The position numbers and the translations under genes were made by a program. Positions 15,456 through 30,302 of a stretch of 42,422 bases of DNA are shown piece after piece. Source of the stretch: Comamonas sp. lk (GTDB lineage: Bacteria; Bacteroidota; Bacteroidia; Chitinophagales; Chitinophagaceae); the NCBI GenBank assembly GCA_943327245.2, contig CALPWK020000002.1, positions 1 through 42,422 of the forward strand, read 5' to 3'. The notes below the pieces were generated by a model, which saw only the letters and a program-made list of their open reading frames with translations, searched no databases and had not been told where the DNA came from. Numbering within the stretch: position 1 is the first letter of the stretch; each line of letters begins with the position of its first letter.

Positions 15456-16364
15456 CTAGAATTGCGTCCTTCTTTTTATTTCATAAATGATAGAACTTGC
15501 TTTTTTAGGATCACTCATTGCCTTCAAATTAGAAATACATCCAATAATAAAGGCTCTAATAATTCCCCAGTATCCTGTTTTTTTATATTTTTCACTTAAT
15601 AGGCTCACGTAAAAACTATCAAACCACATAGGTTTTGTTTGTACTATTTGCATATCATATTGATTTAACAATACTTCCATTGATGAAGGGGAGAAATGGT
15701 AAAGATGCCTTGGTACATCATAAGCTGCCCAATATTTATTATAGTACTGAGCGTCAAAACTAGTGTGGTTGGGAACTGCAATGATTAATCTACCATTTGG
15801 TTTTAATATGGATTTAAAAGCGGCTAAATAACCCTTTAAATCGTGAACATGCTCTAGCACATGCCATAATGTAATTACATCATGACTATTATTAGGCAGT
15901 GTGCTTAATTTTTCTATTGGCAACAATGTAATTTGATAATTATCTAAAGCCTTTAATCTACTTTCTGCATCAGGTTCTAATGCAGTGACTTGCCATCCTT
16001 TATTTATCATTGCATTAGCAAAAGCACCCGTTCCCGCCCCTACTTCTAATAACAAACCTTTATGTCCAGTAAATAAGGACTGAACCCAATTAGTTTTTTG
16101 TTTTAAAGTATAGTTACGAACTGAATGATATAATTTATTCATCCATCCTGTTTTCACGTCAGTATGTGAAATATATTCAGGAAAATTATAGTAAGGTGCG
16201 ATTTCATCAACACTAGGTATAGGAAAAGTATATTTTAAGGAACAATTTGCACATTGTATAATATCAAAGCTTTCTTGTGTTAAAGAATAATCTTTAGAAT
16301 GAATTAAATAGGATACGTCCACTCCAGTACAAATGGGACAAGGAGTAAATGGTGCTTTATTCAT
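15456..16364 (-). CDS. Class I SAM-dependent methyltransferase with N-terminal zinc-ribbon
   Basis: 302 aa; CPIC...CANC pair near the N-terminus; LLLEVGAGTGAFANAM SAM motif; VITLWHVLEHV. Confidence 0.88.
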   Translation of the reverse strand: MNKAPFTPCPICTGVDVSYLIHSKDYSLTQESFDIIQCANCSLKYTFPIPSVDEIAPYYNFPEYISHTDVKTGWMNKLYHSVRNYTLKQKTNWVQSLFTGHKGLLLEVGAGTGAFANAMINKGWQVTALEPDAESRLKALDNYQITLLPIEKLSTLPNNSHDVITLWHVLEHVHDLKGYLAAFKSILKPNGRLIIAVPNHTSFDAQYYNKYWAAYDVPRHLYHFSPSSMEVLLNQYDMQIVQTKPMWFDSFYVSLLSEKYKKTGYWGIIRAFIIGCISNLKAMSDPKKASSIIYEIKRRTQF

Positions 16365-16852
16365 TAAATATAATTTTTAATTAAAATAGCTATAGTTGCA
16401 GATATCGCAATTAGAATTGCCCATACATACCAAATATCTTTATTAGCATGTATATGATTGTTATTTCCATCAACATTCTTAACAGTCTCTATATAAATAG
16501 GTTCATAATAGTCAGTAGTATTATAATTTGATGTAAATAAAACTGTTTGATCATTAAATTGGAATAAACCTAAACTTCCTAATTGAAAATTACCTTGACT
16601 AATTAAATCATTTATTAATTGTTCGTATTTAAGTACCGCTTGATCAATAGAAATGGATAATGCATCAGCTAAATAGGCATAAAAATGTTTCGTCGGATGT
16701 TCGTTTAAATTTTCAAAAACTATTGTTTCTTTAGGTGCTTCCCAAATACCATTTTCAAGTATTGCCTCGGTTTTTACCAATTTTAACGTACCAATGGTAG
16801 GTAATGATAAATGACCAAAAGCTATAAAATATTTTTCTATTATTTTTTTCAT
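16364..16852 (-). CDS. HU/CCDC81-like domain protein with C-terminal transmembrane tail (tentative)
   Basis: 162 aa; N-terminal MKKIIEKYFIAFGHLSLPTIGTLKLVKTEA...FENLNEHPTKHFYAYLAD resembles Bacteroidota HU-CCDC81-type domains. C-terminal WYVWAILIAISATIAILIKNYI is a tail-anchor-like TM. Confidence 0.5.
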   Translation of the reverse strand: MKKIIEKYFIAFGHLSLPTIGTLKLVKTEAILENGIWEAPKETIVFENLNEHPTKHFYAYLADALSISIDQAVLKYEQLINDLISQGNFQLGSLGLFQFNDQTVLFTSNYNTTDYYEPIYIETVKNVDGNNNHIHANKDIWYVWAILIAISATIAILIKNYI

Positions 16853-16853
16853 C

Positions 16854-18686
16854 TTAATTTCTAAATGAATATACTACACCTGCAATAATTTGCAAGCCTA
16901 ATGATGGATAATCTGCCCAACGTTCATATGGTTTATCTAATAAATTCTCCCCTTTGCCCCAAATACTCCATTTTTGTGTTAGTTTATACGTAAACCCAGC
17001 ATTTATTACCATTGTATTTTTTAAATTATAAGCCTTATTGGGCTCTTTAAACTGAGCTGCTCCAGACCAGTAAACTAAGGAAGCATCTAGTATCCACTTT
17101 TCATTAGGTAACCAATTAAGAGTACTATTAAATTCGATTGGTAATATACCCCATGGTTTAGTGTTGTCTTTTATTAAATTAAATTGCTTGTAGCTTAATT
17201 TATTTACAAATAATAAACGATCACTAAACTGATACCTTAATTTAGCATCCATTTCGATAGTATTTGCTTTTGATTCAAATATTGCTTGATATTTAAGTCC
17301 AAAAGTATTTACGTCTGTACCTAAAATTCTATTGAAAAAAGGAAGATTCTTATAATCATTTAATGAAATTCCAAAACTATAGTCCAATCTTTTATTAGCA
17401 CTAACTTCTAATGAGATATATTTTTTATCAATTGTGGTCACTTTCATTTCACTCACTGGCATAATCCAAGGATTTTGAATTACTAAAGATGCATAATGAT
17501 TATTATTGAATGAATTTGACCAACCAATTTTCACTAAATAATTAGTATCTGTTAACTTTTTTTGAAAATGTACATTTGGTAAAAATTGATAATTTTCTTT
17601 ATTAATCCATACAGGACTTGCCCCTACTGTAATTTTACTTCCCCATTTTTCTAATGTTATAGATGGGTCAAACTTAATAATCGTATTTTTTTGATGTATC
17701 AACCCAGTAGGATTATATTGATTATAACTATATAGTAAGTCTAAATTTAATTTTGTATTATTTTTGAACATTAAATACATTGGGTTTTTAAATTCTACCC
17801 AGGTATCTGTTGCGTCAGTAATACCTTCGAATTGTTCAATTTTAGCAATTGGATTTAAATTTACTAATTTGAATTTAGAATTAAAATTTAACCACCCTAT
17901 TGATGCTCCATAATGCGAGAAGTTTTGCTCATAATTGGATTCTGCCACTGTAGTTGCATCAGGAACTAATCCATACCTAAATCGTTGGCTATGTTGATAA
18001 AAAAATTGCGATTGTATTGAATTAAATGAGTTTATGTATTGATCTCCAATATATCTTGCACCTATATCTCGAATTTTTTGTAAGTGATTATCTGTTCCAG
18101 TAGAAGACTCGTTATAAACAGCAATAGAATGCGCATTATTCCATTGGTCGGTAGTATTTATATTCAGATTTATATATTGATGCAAATAATTGCCATAGCC
18201 CACTTTCAAACTTGATACATTTTTATAGCTAAATAACGAATCCACTTTGAAAGATCTTGGAATTAATGCAATAGGCCTATATTGAAAAGTTAAGTTTTGA
18301 CTAGGTACTTGATAATTTAATATTACTGCATTAGTATCTGTAATTGCTGTAGCATTTACAAAACCAATTTTTGAAAGACTTTTAAGTTGTGGTTTAAATG
18401 CGGATAAAATTGTAATTACTTTTTCAGGTATACTATCTGCTTTAGTTGGTTCTACAGCAACTACTGTTTCTTTTAAAAGTGATGTTAGATTAGCTTTGTT
18501 GGTGGCTATTTTTTTACCCTTTTTAGAATATTTTTTTTGAGTATACTTTTTATTCTTTGATTGTTTTTTTATTTTTTTAACAGTAGTAGTTTTTGCTTTT
18601 TTACGTTGTGTTTTTTTTGCATAACTATTTGATGTAAGGAAACATAAGAAAATCAATAGAAATATATATTTAAATAAATGCTTCAT
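16854..18686 (-). CDS. Outer-membrane beta-barrel protein (TonB-receptor-like barrel, no obvious plug) with Lys-rich N-terminus
   Basis: 610 aa; signal peptide; Lys-rich stretch; alternating beta-strand pattern; C-terminus GENLLDKPYERWADYPSLGLQIIAGVVYSF, typical of TonB-family barrels. Confidence 0.78.
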   Translation of the reverse strand: MKHLFKYIFLLIFLCFLTSNSYAKKTQRKKAKTTTVKKIKKQSKNKKYTQKKYSKKGKKIATNKANLTSLLKETVVAVEPTKADSIPEKVITILSAFKPQLKSLSKIGFVNATAITDTNAVILNYQVPSQNLTFQYRPIALIPRSFKVDSLFSYKNVSSLKVGYGNYLHQYINLNINTTDQWNNAHSIAVYNESSTGTDNHLQKIRDIGARYIGDQYINSFNSIQSQFFYQHSQRFRYGLVPDATTVAESNYEQNFSHYGASIGWLNFNSKFKLVNLNPIAKIEQFEGITDATDTWVEFKNPMYLMFKNNTKLNLDLLYSYNQYNPTGLIHQKNTIIKFDPSITLEKWGSKITVGASPVWINKENYQFLPNVHFQKKLTDTNYLVKIGWSNSFNNNHYASLVIQNPWIMPVSEMKVTTIDKKYISLEVSANKRLDYSFGISLNDYKNLPFFNRILGTDVNTFGLKYQAIFESKANTIEMDAKLRYQFSDRLLFVNKLSYKQFNLIKDNTKPWGILPIEFNSTLNWLPNEKWILDASLVYWSGAAQFKEPNKAYNLKNTMVINAGFTYKLTQKWSIWGKGENLLDKPYERWADYPSLGLQIIAGVVYSFRN

Positions 18687-18688
18687 AA

Positions 18689-21600
18689 TTACTTAATTAA
18701 ATTTGAGTTTTCGGTAATTGCTTTTAACTTAACTAAAGCAATTTGTTTTAAATCTTCAGCATTTGCGTTTTCTGAAACACTTTTATAGGTAGCAATAGCA
18801 TTAAAATTATCCTTTTGAGCTACATAAATATCTCCTAAGAGTAAATAGGTTTTAGTTACCCAATAATCATACGCGGCTTGCTTTTTGATAACTTCAAAAG
18901 CTGTTTTCTCAGCTAGTGACAATTTATTTTGTAACAATTGTATTTGTGCAATTTGATAATGTGCTTCTGCTGTAATTAAGGAAGGATTTTCTTTAATTAC
19001 TTTCGATAATACAATTAATGCATTAACTGTATCCTTATTCAATAGATTATTATGGGATATGGCCATATTTGCCATTTGAATATCGTCTGTTGCAGCCGAT
19101 TTGTCTTGTAATAACTGCAGGGCTATTACGGAGGCTTCTGGCCATTTTTCAGCCTTGTATTCACATCTCAATAAACCCTTTATTGCTTCAATTTTATTCT
19201 CTTGTTGTGTTGCAATTTGATTTAAAATTAAAAAATACTTTTCAGCTATGTCATACTGCTTTAAATTGAAATAATGGAGTCTAGCTGACAGCAATGCTGC
19301 TCTTTCTGCAAATTTATTAGGCGATTGATTAGCCACTATAGCAAAATATTTAGCAGCAGAATCATATTGTTCTTTTGAATAAGCAATTTCAGCTATTAAA
19401 TAATTAGCATCTAATTGGTATTTGCCATTGGGAAATAATTGTAAATATTTACTAAATCCTATACCTGCTTCATTGTATTTCTTTTGCTCATATTTAATAA
19501 TTGCAGATCTATATACTAAAGAGTCTTGTTCATTATTTGATAATGATTTACCAAAATCATTCATAAATTGAACAAATAATTCGGGTGTTTGGTCTTCTAC
19601 AAATATATTTCTAACAAATTCAACTGAATTGTCGGTTTCTACCGCTTTTGGATAAGCTGTAAATAAATCTCTAAAGGTTTGTAGAGCAACTTCATTTTTA
19701 TTTAAATTAAAATAAACAATACCTAATTTATAATAGGCTTGAGGGTAAAATCCACTAGCTTTTTTATCTAATAATATTTTGGTAAGTGGTGCTATTGCAT
19801 CTTGAAAATTTTCACGATTAACATAAGTATCTGCTAATTCAATTCTAGCGTCATTTAGGTAATTTGAAGAAGGGAATAAAGTTTCAAATTCTTTTAAGTA
19901 TGTTATTTTTTCATTATTCTTACCCATTCCACCCAAGATTAATGCTTTCTGTAAAGTTGCATAATCAATATAGGTCCAACCTAGATCAATAACTTGTTGA
20001 TAGGATTGTAAAGCTTGTTTGTATTGTTTAAGCATCATTTGGCAATCCCCTATTCTAACAAATGCATCCTTTTGATAGTTTTCACTAATATAGGTTGGAT
20101 TATTCATAGTTGCACCTAATAAATTACTTAATGCAGCTTTATAATTTCCGTTTTTCAAATAAGCATAACCTAATGTATATTTTGCATGTCTTATATTAAC
20201 TTCACCCATTTCAATTGGTTCTGTAATATATTTTTCTAAATAAGAAATCGTTTCTGTGTTCAGCCCCATTTTATAAGACAATTCACCTAACCAAAATTGG
20301 GTTTGGGGTAATACTTTCGCATTATAGGGAGTATGTTGTAATTGGTTAAAAAGCGCATAAGCCTTTTCAATTTGCCCGTCATTTAGACTCAAACAAGCTT
20401 TACCATATAAAATATTAGGATAAATTTTCAATAATTCGACTCCTGGATTCTCTATAGACTCATAAGCCTCTAATGCTTGTGTATAATTATTGCTTAAAGC
20501 TAAAGCTGTAATCCATAAATCTTTAGCTTCTTGATAATAATCTGATTTTGGATAATTTATTAAGAACTTGTCTAGTGCATTTACGGAAGTACTATATTCT
20601 TTAAGTTCCAATGTTATTTTTGCATAATTAAATAAGGATATTTCTTTTTGAGAAAGATTTTGGCTTTTGGTTGCACACAATAAAAATGCATTTTTAGCGC
20701 CATTTTTGTCTTTTGTTTTCAAATAAGCAGTGGCTAGCAAATACATGCTATTTTGACCTAATGAATCTTCTATATCAGCTAATTGTTTGAAACCTACAAT
20801 TGCTTTCTCCCAATCTTGAGACTGGAAATAACAAAAAGATAATTGATATAAATCTTGTGTTTCTACCTTCTTTTGAATTGTAACATAATTTGCTAAATAA
20901 GGTAATGCTTTTTGATACTCTTTTTTCTCAAACAAAAGATGACCCATTAATTGCTGGAGCTGTACATTATAAAATTGGCCATTTTGTTTTAAAGCATTTT
21001 CACAGTTCAACATAGCCGCATCTACATCTCCTAAAAAATAATACAACTGACTTATATAAAACGGGGCTAACTTATTATAAGCAGGACTGGTGGATGCAAT
21101 TTGGAAACAGCTTAATGCCAATTTAAATTCCTTTTTTTCTAAAGCTATAAAACCAGCATAGTAATTTGCGTCTGTATAAAATTTACTTTCTTTGACTTGT
21201 CTGACATTATTAAGTAAAGAAGCTGCTTTTATCCAGTCTCCTAACTTAAAATACAAATAACCTTGCTGGAATTTCATCAAAATGATCTCTTCATTTTCTA
21301 AGTCATCAATTCCAACATTTTTATAAGCATTCAGTGCTAATTCATCTTTTTGTTTCTTGAAATAATATTTGCCTAATAAAAAACTTAATCTTGATTTGTA
21401 AATTTTATTATTAGAAGTGGCCATCCATTTATTAGCTAATGCATCTCCATATGGTTTTTCTAATAAAATAGACAATGACAAATAATAATAATCCACTTCA
21501 TCTTGTTTGTCAGAGAAGGTATAGGCAGATTGAATATACTGATAGGCGGTTAAAGTGTCTCCTTGTTTGAGTGCTTGTAAACCTTTTTGGAAAACATGCT

Positions 21601-21697
21601 GTAAGGGATTGTTGTATTGGGCATTTTGTGCATTCACAGCAAAAACTGAGAAAGTCATTAAAAAAGCCAAGTATATCGAATTTCTAGTCTGTAACAT
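18689..21697 (-). CDS. Large periplasmic tetratricopeptide repeat protein
   Basis: 1002 aa; signal peptide (MLQTRNSIYLAFLMTFSVFAVNAQ) and many TPR-like units (e.g. AYYKLGIVYFNLNKNEVALQTFRDLFTAYPKA). Confidence 0.9.
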   Translation of the reverse strand: MLQTRNSIYLAFLMTFSVFAVNAQNAQYNNPLQHVFQKGLQALKQGDTLTAYQYIQSAYTFSDKQDEVDYYYLSLSILLEKPYGDALANKWMATSNNKIYKSRLSFLLGKYYFKKQKDELALNAYKNVGIDDLENEEIILMKFQQGYLYFKLGDWIKAASLLNNVRQVKESKFYTDANYYAGFIALEKKEFKLALSCFQIASTSPAYNKLAPFYISQLYYFLGDVDAAMLNCENALKQNGQFYNVQLQQLMGHLLFEKKEYQKALPYLANYVTIQKKVETQDLYQLSFCYFQSQDWEKAIVGFKQLADIEDSLGQNSMYLLATAYLKTKDKNGAKNAFLLCATKSQNLSQKEISLFNYAKITLELKEYSTSVNALDKFLINYPKSDYYQEAKDLWITALALSNNYTQALEAYESIENPGVELLKIYPNILYGKACLSLNDGQIEKAYALFNQLQHTPYNAKVLPQTQFWLGELSYKMGLNTETISYLEKYITEPIEMGEVNIRHAKYTLGYAYLKNGNYKAALSNLLGATMNNPTYISENYQKDAFVRIGDCQMMLKQYKQALQSYQQVIDLGWTYIDYATLQKALILGGMGKNNEKITYLKEFETLFPSSNYLNDARIELADTYVNRENFQDAIAPLTKILLDKKASGFYPQAYYKLGIVYFNLNKNEVALQTFRDLFTAYPKAVETDNSVEFVRNIFVEDQTPELFVQFMNDFGKSLSNNEQDSLVYRSAIIKYEQKKYNEAGIGFSKYLQLFPNGKYQLDANYLIAEIAYSKEQYDSAAKYFAIVANQSPNKFAERAALLSARLHYFNLKQYDIAEKYFLILNQIATQQENKIEAIKGLLRCEYKAEKWPEASVIALQLLQDKSAATDDIQMANMAISHNNLLNKDTVNALIVLSKVIKENPSLITAEAHYQIAQIQLLQNKLSLAEKTAFEVIKKQAAYDYWVTKTYLLLGDIYVAQKDNFNAIATYKSVSENANAEDLKQIALVKLKAITENSNLIK

Positions 21698-21814: not shown

Positions 21815-22225
21815 ATGTACGAACATAGCACCACAATTAGAGTAAGGTATGCCGAAACGGATAGAATGGATGTAGTCTACTATGGCAATTATGCCCAATA
21901 TTTTGAAGTTGGACGAGTTGAAAGTCTCAGAGCACTTGGGATTAGCTATAAAGATATAGAGTCTATGGGGATCATATTACCGGTAGTGGAACTTCAAATC
22001 AAGTACCTAAGACCTGCTAAATATGATGATTTATTGACAGTAAAATCAATGATCAAAGCCTTACCGCATGATCATAAAATTGAATTTAATCAGGAAGTGT
22101 ATAATGAAGAAGGTAAACTGCTTACCGTTGGCACGGTGAAACTTTATTTTATGGACGATCAATTACAAAATAAGGTTGAAATGCCTGCTTTAATGAAGGA
22201 AAAACTAAGCCCCTATTTTAGTTAA
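21815..22225 (+). CDS. Acyl-CoA thioesterase, YbgC/4-hydroxybenzoyl-CoA thioesterase family
   Basis: 136 aa hotdog fold; IRVRYAETDRMDVVYYGNYAQYFEVGRVE. Confidence 0.9.
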   Translation: MYEHSTTIRVRYAETDRMDVVYYGNYAQYFEVGRVESLRALGISYKDIESMGIILPVVELQIKYLRPAKYDDLLTVKSMIKALPHDHKIEFNQEVYNEEGKLLTVGTVKLYFMDDQLQNKVEMPALMKEKLSPYFS

Positions 22226-27839: not shown

Positions 27840-30302
27840 ATGAAGGTATTAATAATTGCATTTGCCTCTTTCTTTTTAGCTATTATATCCATAGGTCAAT
27901 CATCTGCGCAAGCCCTTGGTACTATTTCTGGCTGGGTAGTTAATAAAAATACACAGAATCCTATTCCAGGTGTTTCTATCAAAATAGTAAATACCAAGTT
28001 TTCAGCTACTTCAGATAGTTTGGGGAGGTATAGCATTAAAGGTATTCCAACTGGTCAATATCAAATTATATTTAACTCAATGGGTAGTTTACCCTATAGT
28101 CAATACAATGTGGTTGTAAGTTCAGGAAATGAAACTAGTAATACTATTGAGTTAGTTCCTCAAGATATTATCCTTAAAGAAGTGACTGTTGGTAATATTA
28201 AGAAGACAGTTAGAGCAGCAAGTTTAGAAACCCCTTTAAGTGTTCAAAGACTTACAGCAGAAGAAATTAAATCAAGTCCAGGCAGTAATTTTGATATATC
28301 CAAAGTGGTACAGTCTTTACCTGGAGTAACAGGATCGGCAAGTACCTCTGCAGGATTTAGAAATGATATTATTGTTAGAGGAGGTGCCCCAAATGAAAAT
28401 GTATTTTATTTAGATGGAATCGAAATTCCAGTTATCAATCACTTTTCGACACAAGGAAGCGCGGGTGGCCCGCAAGGCATTTTAAATGTTTCTTTTATTG
28501 ACGAAGTTAAATTATCAACTTCCGCATTCGACGCTAAATTTGACAATGCCCTATCCTCTGTATTTGAGTTTAAACAAAAGAGAGGTAATCCGAATAAATT
28601 AGAATCAAATATACGAATGGGTGCCACAGAATTTGCGAGTACATTCAATGGCCCATTATCTAAATCAGGGAAAACAACTTTTCTAGTATCTGCTAGAAGA
28701 AGTTATTTACAATATTTATTTTATGCTTTAGATTTACCTATCCGGCCCAATTTCTGGGATTTTCAATATAAAATAACACATCAAATTGATCCAAAAACAA
28801 CATTGACCTTCTTAGGTGTTGGTGCTATTGATAAATTTTATTTTGTTGCACCTCGTAATGCTACGCCAGAAAAATTATTTGCACTAAATTCTAGTCCATC
28901 TATAAATCAATGGAGCTATACCATGGGCCTTTCATTAAAGAAATTGATTAATAAAGGATATTGGAATATTAGTATAAGCAGGAACCATTTAAATAATATT
29001 AATGAGAAGTATGAAAATAATTTATCTCAAGATAAGGGAGAACTAACCCTTAACTATAAATCTAATGAAATTGAGAATAAATTAAGATTCGAACTTACAA
29101 AAAGTTTATTAGGATTAAAATGGACAACTGGTGCAAATATTCAGACCATTGAATATGATAATTACACCTATCAAATATTAAGCAATTTTCAACCTTCGTC
29201 TATTGTTGGAGCAACTAGTAAACCTATACAATCTAAATATGAATACAAATCTGATTTAGCATTTAAAAAGTATGGAGCATTTTTCCAATTAGGAAAAAAA
29301 GCTTTTAATAACAGACTTGGTATTAGTGCAGGTATTAGAACCGATGGTAATGGATTTAATAATTCTGGTAAGCAATTTATGAGTAGACTTTCTCCAAGAT
29401 TTGGATTAAGTTATGTACTTTCTGATAAAATCACATTAAACGCCTCTATTGGTAGATACTTTAAAGTGGCTCCTTTGACTTCATTAGGATTCAAGGATTT
29501 AAATGGCATTTATGTAAATAAGAATGTAGATTATATTGGAAGCAATCATTACGTAACAGGAATTGAATTTATCCCAACGGAAGCAACAAGATTTACTGCG
29601 GAGGTCTTTTATAAGAAATATTTCAATGTTCCATTAAGCATACAAAAAGGTATTAGTTTGTCTAATTTGGGGGCTGACTTTAATATACTAGGGAATGAAC
29701 CAATTGCGACTTCGGGGAAAGGTAGAAGTTATGGTTTTGAATTATTTGCTCAACAGAAATTGACAAAAAGATTCTTTGGGGTAGCTAGTTACAGTTTCTT
29801 TAGAAGTGCCTATACAGATAGGCAAAGTAATTTCATTAATAGTTCTTGGGAGAATATTAATTTAGTGAGTTTGACGGCTGGTTATAAATTTAATAAGAAT
29901 TGGGAATTAGGAATAAAGTTTAGGTTCCAAGGAGGAACTCCTTATTCTCCTTATGATAGTGCAAGTAGTAGACTTAACTTCATAACATTAGGGTCTGGTA
30001 TTTTAGACTATAGTAAATTGAATACATTAAGAGTAAATCCATTTCATTCAAGTGACTTTAGATTAGATAAAAAGTATAATTATAAAAAAGCAACGCTCGA
30101 CTTTTTCTTAGATATCACAAATTGGTATGGGTCAAGTTCTGTAGCGCCTAGAACATATATTTTAGAATCTAATGCTGATGGTAGTTTTAAAACAACAGAC
30201 GGTAAACCAATTAAAAAAGATGGCTCCAATGGGATACCTTCTCTAGCAGATGGAAATCAAGTTTTCATAACGCCCACTATTGGATTTATTTTGGAATTCT
30301 AG
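27840..30302 (+). CDS. TonB-dependent receptor with N-terminal carboxypeptidase-regulatory-like domain
   Basis: 820 aa; signal peptide, GTISGWVVNKNTQNPIPGVSIKI...DSLGRYSIKGIP, plug (VVQSLPGVTGSA...NDIIVRGGAPNENVFYLDGIEIPVINHF), barrel. Confidence 0.93.
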   Translation: MKVLIIAFASFFLAIISIGQSSAQALGTISGWVVNKNTQNPIPGVSIKIVNTKFSATSDSLGRYSIKGIPTGQYQIIFNSMGSLPYSQYNVVVSSGNETSNTIELVPQDIILKEVTVGNIKKTVRAASLETPLSVQRLTAEEIKSSPGSNFDISKVVQSLPGVTGSASTSAGFRNDIIVRGGAPNENVFYLDGIEIPVINHFSTQGSAGGPQGILNVSFIDEVKLSTSAFDAKFDNALSSVFEFKQKRGNPNKLESNIRMGATEFASTFNGPLSKSGKTTFLVSARRSYLQYLFYALDLPIRPNFWDFQYKITHQIDPKTTLTFLGVGAIDKFYFVAPRNATPEKLFALNSSPSINQWSYTMGLSLKKLINKGYWNISISRNHLNNINEKYENNLSQDKGELTLNYKSNEIENKLRFELTKSLLGLKWTTGANIQTIEYDNYTYQILSNFQPSSIVGATSKPIQSKYEYKSDLAFKKYGAFFQLGKKAFNNRLGISAGIRTDGNGFNNSGKQFMSRLSPRFGLSYVLSDKITLNASIGRYFKVAPLTSLGFKDLNGIYVNKNVDYIGSNHYVTGIEFIPTEATRFTAEVFYKKYFNVPLSIQKGISLSNLGADFNILGNEPIATSGKGRSYGFELFAQQKLTKRFFGVASYSFFRSAYTDRQSNFINSSWENINLVSLTAGYKFNKNWELGIKFRFQGGTPYSPYDSASSRLNFITLGSGILDYSKLNTLRVNPFHSSDFRLDKKYNYKKATLDFFLDITNWYGSSSVAPRTYILESNADGSFKTTDGKPIKKDGSNGIPSLADGNQVFITPTIGFILEF

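Follow-up and report, generated by a model that had tools for sequence, protein, structure and literature searches.

The window (the whole stretch of DNA analysed, 42,422 nucleotides) carries a block of four open reading frames on the minus strand at 15456-21697. Read from the TPR gene onwards, the genes are separated by 2 nt and 1 nt and then overlap by 1 nt, and this close spacing is also kept across the genus of the window. The earlier note had described four nearly fused genes encoding, in turn, an exported TPR protein, a barrel of the outer membrane, an HU-like protein with a transmembrane segment and a zinc-ribbon methyltransferase; the reading frames, both gaps and the overlap are as it gave them, and all four product types hold. 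The features of the locus are the following.

15456..16364, minus strand: 302-aa class I SAM methyltransferase with an N-terminal Cys4 zinc-ribbon-like segment of two Cys pairs (Pfam Methyltransf_23)
16364..16852, minus strand: 162-aa HU-fold protein with a C-terminal membrane helix, SPOR-less (AlphaFold, Foldseek)
16370..16432, minus strand: membrane helix of the HU-fold protein, residues 141-161 (AlphaFold)
16523..16852, minus strand: tandem pair of HU-like halves (residues 1-48 and 54-110) of acidic composition (AlphaFold, Foldseek, profile search)
16854..18686, minus strand: 610-aa outer-membrane plug-less 22-strand barrel protein of the TonB-receptor type, beginning with a signal peptide (AlphaFold, Foldseek, Pfam)
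16857..18215, minus strand: 22-strand barrel domain, residues 158-610 (AlphaFold, Foldseek)
18366..18425, minus strand: conserved motif in the N-terminal part of the barrel protein (residues 88-107: EKVITILSAFKPQLKSLSKI; alignments)
18498..18617, minus strand: low-complexity linker, rich in Lys, of the barrel protein (about residues 24-63; sequence)
18689..21697, minus strand: 1002-aa exported TPR protein (signal peptide, TPRs along its length; Pfam TPRs)
21815..22225, plus strand: YbgC/FadM-type acyl-CoA thioesterase, divergent neighbour of the TPR gene, conserved in the genus (TIGR00051 above cut-off, TIGR02799 below cut-off)

The barrel profile matched all sampled genomes of the window's class (n=61 by count), the listed non-matching genomes starting outside the class. 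Among loci sampled with the barrel as sole query, the TPR gene was adjacent in 18 of 20 families across the phylum, a HU/SPOR gene lay next to the barrel in 12 of the 20, and TolQ/ExbB followed in 9, in 8 of them after the HU gene, usually accompanied by TolR/ExbD and a TonB/TolA-like gene. Sampling by TolR alone gave 29 named Cytophagales loci, including Algoriphagus, Echinicola, Cyclobacterium, Pontibacter, Fulvivirga and Ekhidna, with the order TPR-barrel-HU/SPOR-TolQ-(TolR)-TolA-like and mostly FolC next. In the barrel-sampled loci, most gaps ranged from a few nucleotides to some tens. Since the two samplings differ in their query, the linkage is not a query artefact, and chance gene order is ruled out because the order is conserved over many families. 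Overall, the succession of TPR protein, plug-less 22-strand barrel, HU-membrane helix-SPOR protein, TolQ/ExbB, TolR/ExbD and TonB/TolA-like protein (optionally with FolC) is repeated in many families and probably represents the ancestral order. The presence of the motor genes TolQ/ExbB, TolR/ExbD and TonB/TolA-like behind the set, in at least 8 families, is newly found here. The earlier note had looked for synteny reaching beyond close relatives; conservation is phylum-wide, far broader than that. Beyond FolC, no fixed further member recurs in the mapped neighbourhoods, and in these the methyltransferase gene adjoins the locus only in the window's family (f1). It is a family-level addition to the operon, outside the conserved core, and its inclusion in the proposed assembly is not upheld.

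The genes of the window are a local remnant of this phylum-wide set, in a lineage where SPOR has been lost and the motor genes lie at other sites. The genome contains two motor loci, an ExbB-ExbD-ExbD-TonB cluster (contig 26) and a TolQ-TolR pair (contig 62). The contig-62 TolQ groups with the operon TolQs (support 0.99, clade of seven) and the Ton-type ExbB of contig 26 does not; judged by sequence grouping, the contig-62 pair is orthologous to the operon pair and unlinked from the triad. No transducer gene was found after TolR or beside TolQ-TolR in the window's genus, and one does follow TolR in other families of the order (loci L288, L290 and L291). A search of the window's own genome for an operon-type TonB/TolA-like protein (TolA ortholog) returned nothing, which is little proof as the assembly is incomplete. 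In most relatives scanned, the transducer belongs to the TonB_C family (over cut-off in 3 of 7 proteins), and hhalign put it slightly closer, on weak matches, to E. coli TolA (E 2e-4) than to the TonB of the window's genome (E 0.03). At locus L096, Pfam recognised HU-CCDC81_bac_1, HU-CCDC81_bac_2, SPOR, MotA_ExbB and ExbD/TolR. Triad and motor were also unlinked in Flavobacteriaceae and in the Bacteroidales sampled; in Flavobacteriales and Bacteroidales the motor was found elsewhere, either with FolC or by itself.

The AlphaFold model of the barrel protein shows 22 strands from residue 158, preceded by disorder over residues 19-154, and therefore no plug; Pfam detects no plug domain either. 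In contrast, Pfam does recognise a plug in the neighbouring true TonB-dependent receptor (27840-30302). The closest solved structures, found by Foldseek on the predicted model, are those of TonB-dependent receptors, e.g., PfeA and BtuB. Residues 21-80 contain 21 K/R versus 2 D/E, and the description of a Lys-rich, plug-less barrel proved correct on both counts; the Lys-rich stretch is mainly confined to the window's genus and a few close lineages. A likeness of the N-terminus to a TonB box is visible by eye. Scored against shuffles with a profile built on six E. coli receptors, 4 of 30 sequences reached p < 0.05 (combined p about 0.02), a resemblance that we do not find convincing and do not claim. 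On contig 62 of the same genome (L174 5329-6039), about 3.6 kb upstream of TolQ-TolR, lies the gene of an exported protein whose N-terminal stretch is rich in Lys and Ser and resembles the barrel linker.

A 22-strand barrel of the TonB-receptor type, a transducer of the TonB_C family and a motor linked in many families could together form a TonB-type transport or secretion channel, in which the TPR protein gates the pore in place of a plug and the ExbBD-TonB-like motor energises passage of a dedicated substrate. We consider this unlikely: the plug is absent, no binding-lipoprotein or substrate genes lie nearby, the barrel is present in every sampled genome of the class, and uptake would not account for the SPOR and HU modules.

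FolC, HolA and OTCase genes also adjoin the locus, and thus housekeeping genes share the site. Together with the motor linkage missing in several lineages, this would suit a co-regulated cluster of envelope housekeeping genes, whose proteins act separately and are co-located for expression only. However, the TPR-barrel adjacency holds in nearly all families sampled (18/20) as the other neighbours change, and we regard simple co-location as rather improbable.

AlphaFold predicted the 162-aa protein with a pLDDT of 89.7 as two HU-like halves (about residues 2-47 and 55-108) followed by a helix at 141-161. Foldseek matched this model to HU proteins with a probability of up to 0.98, although none of the matches reached E 0.001; ranked first was a chain from the doublet microtubule of sea urchin sperm. 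HU and IHF were also recovered by the family profile search, and the Pfam model HU-CCDC81_bac_2 matched the protein weakly (E = 0.002, below cut-off) and exceeded its cut-off only in relatives. The HU-like fold suspected from the sequence is thus borne out by AlphaFold and Foldseek. The HU part of the window protein has a pI of 5.0 and a net charge of -5, and among the SPOR-less members tabulated its pI is 4.5-6.3 in all but one. With an acidic HU part in almost every member of the window's family, a link to DNA or the nucleoid is unlikely, and charge does not support a DNA-binding HU. The earlier note's nucleoid-to-envelope tether, in which the HU domain would bind DNA and tie the chromosome to an outer-membrane assembly, draws on the presence of an HU fold on a membrane-anchored protein and on the near neutral or slightly basic HU part of Hymenobacteraceae-type members; set against the negative charge of the window protein and nearly all its family relatives, and against whole families that kept the operon yet lost HU, it is very improbable.

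The HU-HU-membrane helix-SPOR form was found in Pontibacter and at loci L096, L135-L138 and L095, and is probably the ancestral state of the middle protein. Every examined member of the window's lineage has HU and the membrane helix without SPOR, and Cyclobacteriaceae and several other Cytophagales have the membrane helix and SPOR without HU; therefore, separate lineages lost one end or the other independently. The SPOR-less form pointed out in the earlier note is real, and it is derived by loss from an ancestor carrying SPOR. Among PDB structures, the family's SPOR domain matches those of FtsN and of the CwlC type. No SPOR domain over cut-off was detected anywhere in the window's genome (assembly about 90% complete); the single SPOR-like match (contig 207, 1157-1270) is weak, at 14.3 bits and below cut-off, suggesting that the lineage may have lost SPOR domains altogether. 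With the HU-CCDC81-SPOR proteins of Bacteroidota, the family shares the tandem HU-like halves, one membrane helix and the same position in the gene order; it differs from them in the 162-aa window form without SPOR and in the Cyclobacteriaceae form with SPOR and without HU.

Relatives of the TPR protein are full-length (about 1000-1090 aa) and lie beside the barrel gene across the phylum; a TPR alignment spanning the whole phylum was too divergent to scan contigs. Membership of CpoB/YbgF (TIGR02795) is not claimed, the score of 161.8 bits against a cut-off of 90.1 being inflated by the summing of 8 repeated generic-TPR stretches. The resemblance to PorW/SprE is weak and at the level of TPRs (52.9 against a 250-bit cut-off). 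An accessory to exopolysaccharide or type IX secretion, by analogy with TPR and barrel pairs like AlgK-AlgE, could be read from this pairing and from the PorW/SprE likeness, and is hardly probable with that score so far under the cut-off, a barrel of the TonB-receptor type and a conserved neighbourhood in which no gene for a synthase or for secretion was recognised. The genes upstream of the TPR gene differ among loci, e.g., holA (DNA polymerase III delta) in Algoriphagus (L175 2681-3703) and an OTCase-family gene in L096 (3687-4616), and the TPR-barrel pair is constant. Family f42 (L158-L161, L170) has no long TPR gene directly upstream of the barrel; genes of about 340, 236 and 850 aa replace it in most of these loci, and barrel-HU/SPOR-TolQRA is kept.

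From the gene order, we infer with a probability of about one half that the TPR, barrel and HU proteins belong to a Tol-like, proton-driven trans-envelope system found throughout the Bacteroidota, and that they make up its portion outside the motor, in the outer membrane, in the periplasm and as inner-membrane anchor. The periplasmic TPR protein would act as a scaffold on the barrel, and the bitopic HU protein as an adaptor beside the TolQR stator, its HU fold serving as a protein-protein dimer module and not as a DNA binder. In relatives bearing SPOR, this domain would send the middle protein to denuded septal peptidoglycan. A TonB/TolA-like transducer might then pull on the barrel or TPR side, so that the outer membrane would be drawn in at division or held to the wall. 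Counting against this reading are the unlinked motor in Flavobacteriaceae and the Bacteroidales sampled, the transducer gene not found in the window's genus, the unconvincing TonB-box likeness, the housekeeping neighbours and a set in which no TolB or Pal gene was recognised. Of the trans-envelope assembly put forward in the earlier note, the assembly itself gains from the TolQ/TolR/TonB-type motor that follows the same genes in many families, and the nucleoid link falls away.

Because Bacteroidetes are without identifiable tol-pal loci according to a 2025 paper (PMC12204202), the gene set is a real and testable candidate for an envelope-stabilising machine, with a putative role in division or outer-membrane stability. 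More tentatively, and short of probable in our estimate, it might be a counterpart of Tol-Pal that is non-orthologous and has gone unrecognised. In it, the giant TPR protein and the plug-less barrel would replace TolB, Pal and CpoB, the membrane protein with the HU fold would connect the TolQR-TolA motor with the cytoplasm or the divisome, and HU and SPOR would be separable modules lost reciprocally. Neither TolB nor Pal came up in the general Pfam scans or as a recurring gene of the mapped neighbourhoods; five OmpA-type domains are encoded elsewhere in the window's genome. PorE has been proposed as a Bacteroidetes outer-membrane tether substituting for tol-pal, and likewise would fill this gap with TPR and other Tol-like parts; unlike the present operon, it is a single fused lipoprotein linked to T9SS (PMC12204202). 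BAM subunits were considered and rejected, the Bacteroidota BamG barrel being FadL-like and the other new subunits not fitting the description (PMC12611786); in the accessible text of two Bacteroidota BAM papers from the open-licence literature, the proteins of the locus are not described.

The near-universal TPR-barrel pair, accompanied in many families by a proton-driven motor and a SPOR protein, bears on how the outer membrane is attached or constricted in Bacteroidota. The conserved set offers a short list of genes for functional study of the envelope in this phylum, and the lineages that lost HU or, reciprocally, SPOR show which of its ends the middle protein can do without.

With the Ton system (ExbB-ExbD-TonB and TonB-dependent receptors), the set shares motor families and a TonB-receptor-type barrel; it differs in the lack of a plug and in a motor subfamily distinct from the contig-26 cluster. 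With Tol-Pal (TolQ-TolR-TolA-TolB-Pal-CpoB, with YbgC), the relatives share a TolQ/TolR-type pair and a TonB/TolA-like transducer, a periplasmic TPR protein and outer-membrane components in one operon; the differences are the giant TPR protein and the plug-less barrel, the added HU-membrane helix-SPOR protein and, in the window, the unlinked motor. A YbgC-type thioesterase is also common to both, here as a divergent neighbour in the window's genus. The thioesterase gene diverges from the TPR gene and E. coli ybgC precedes tolQ, which is possibly a coincidence.
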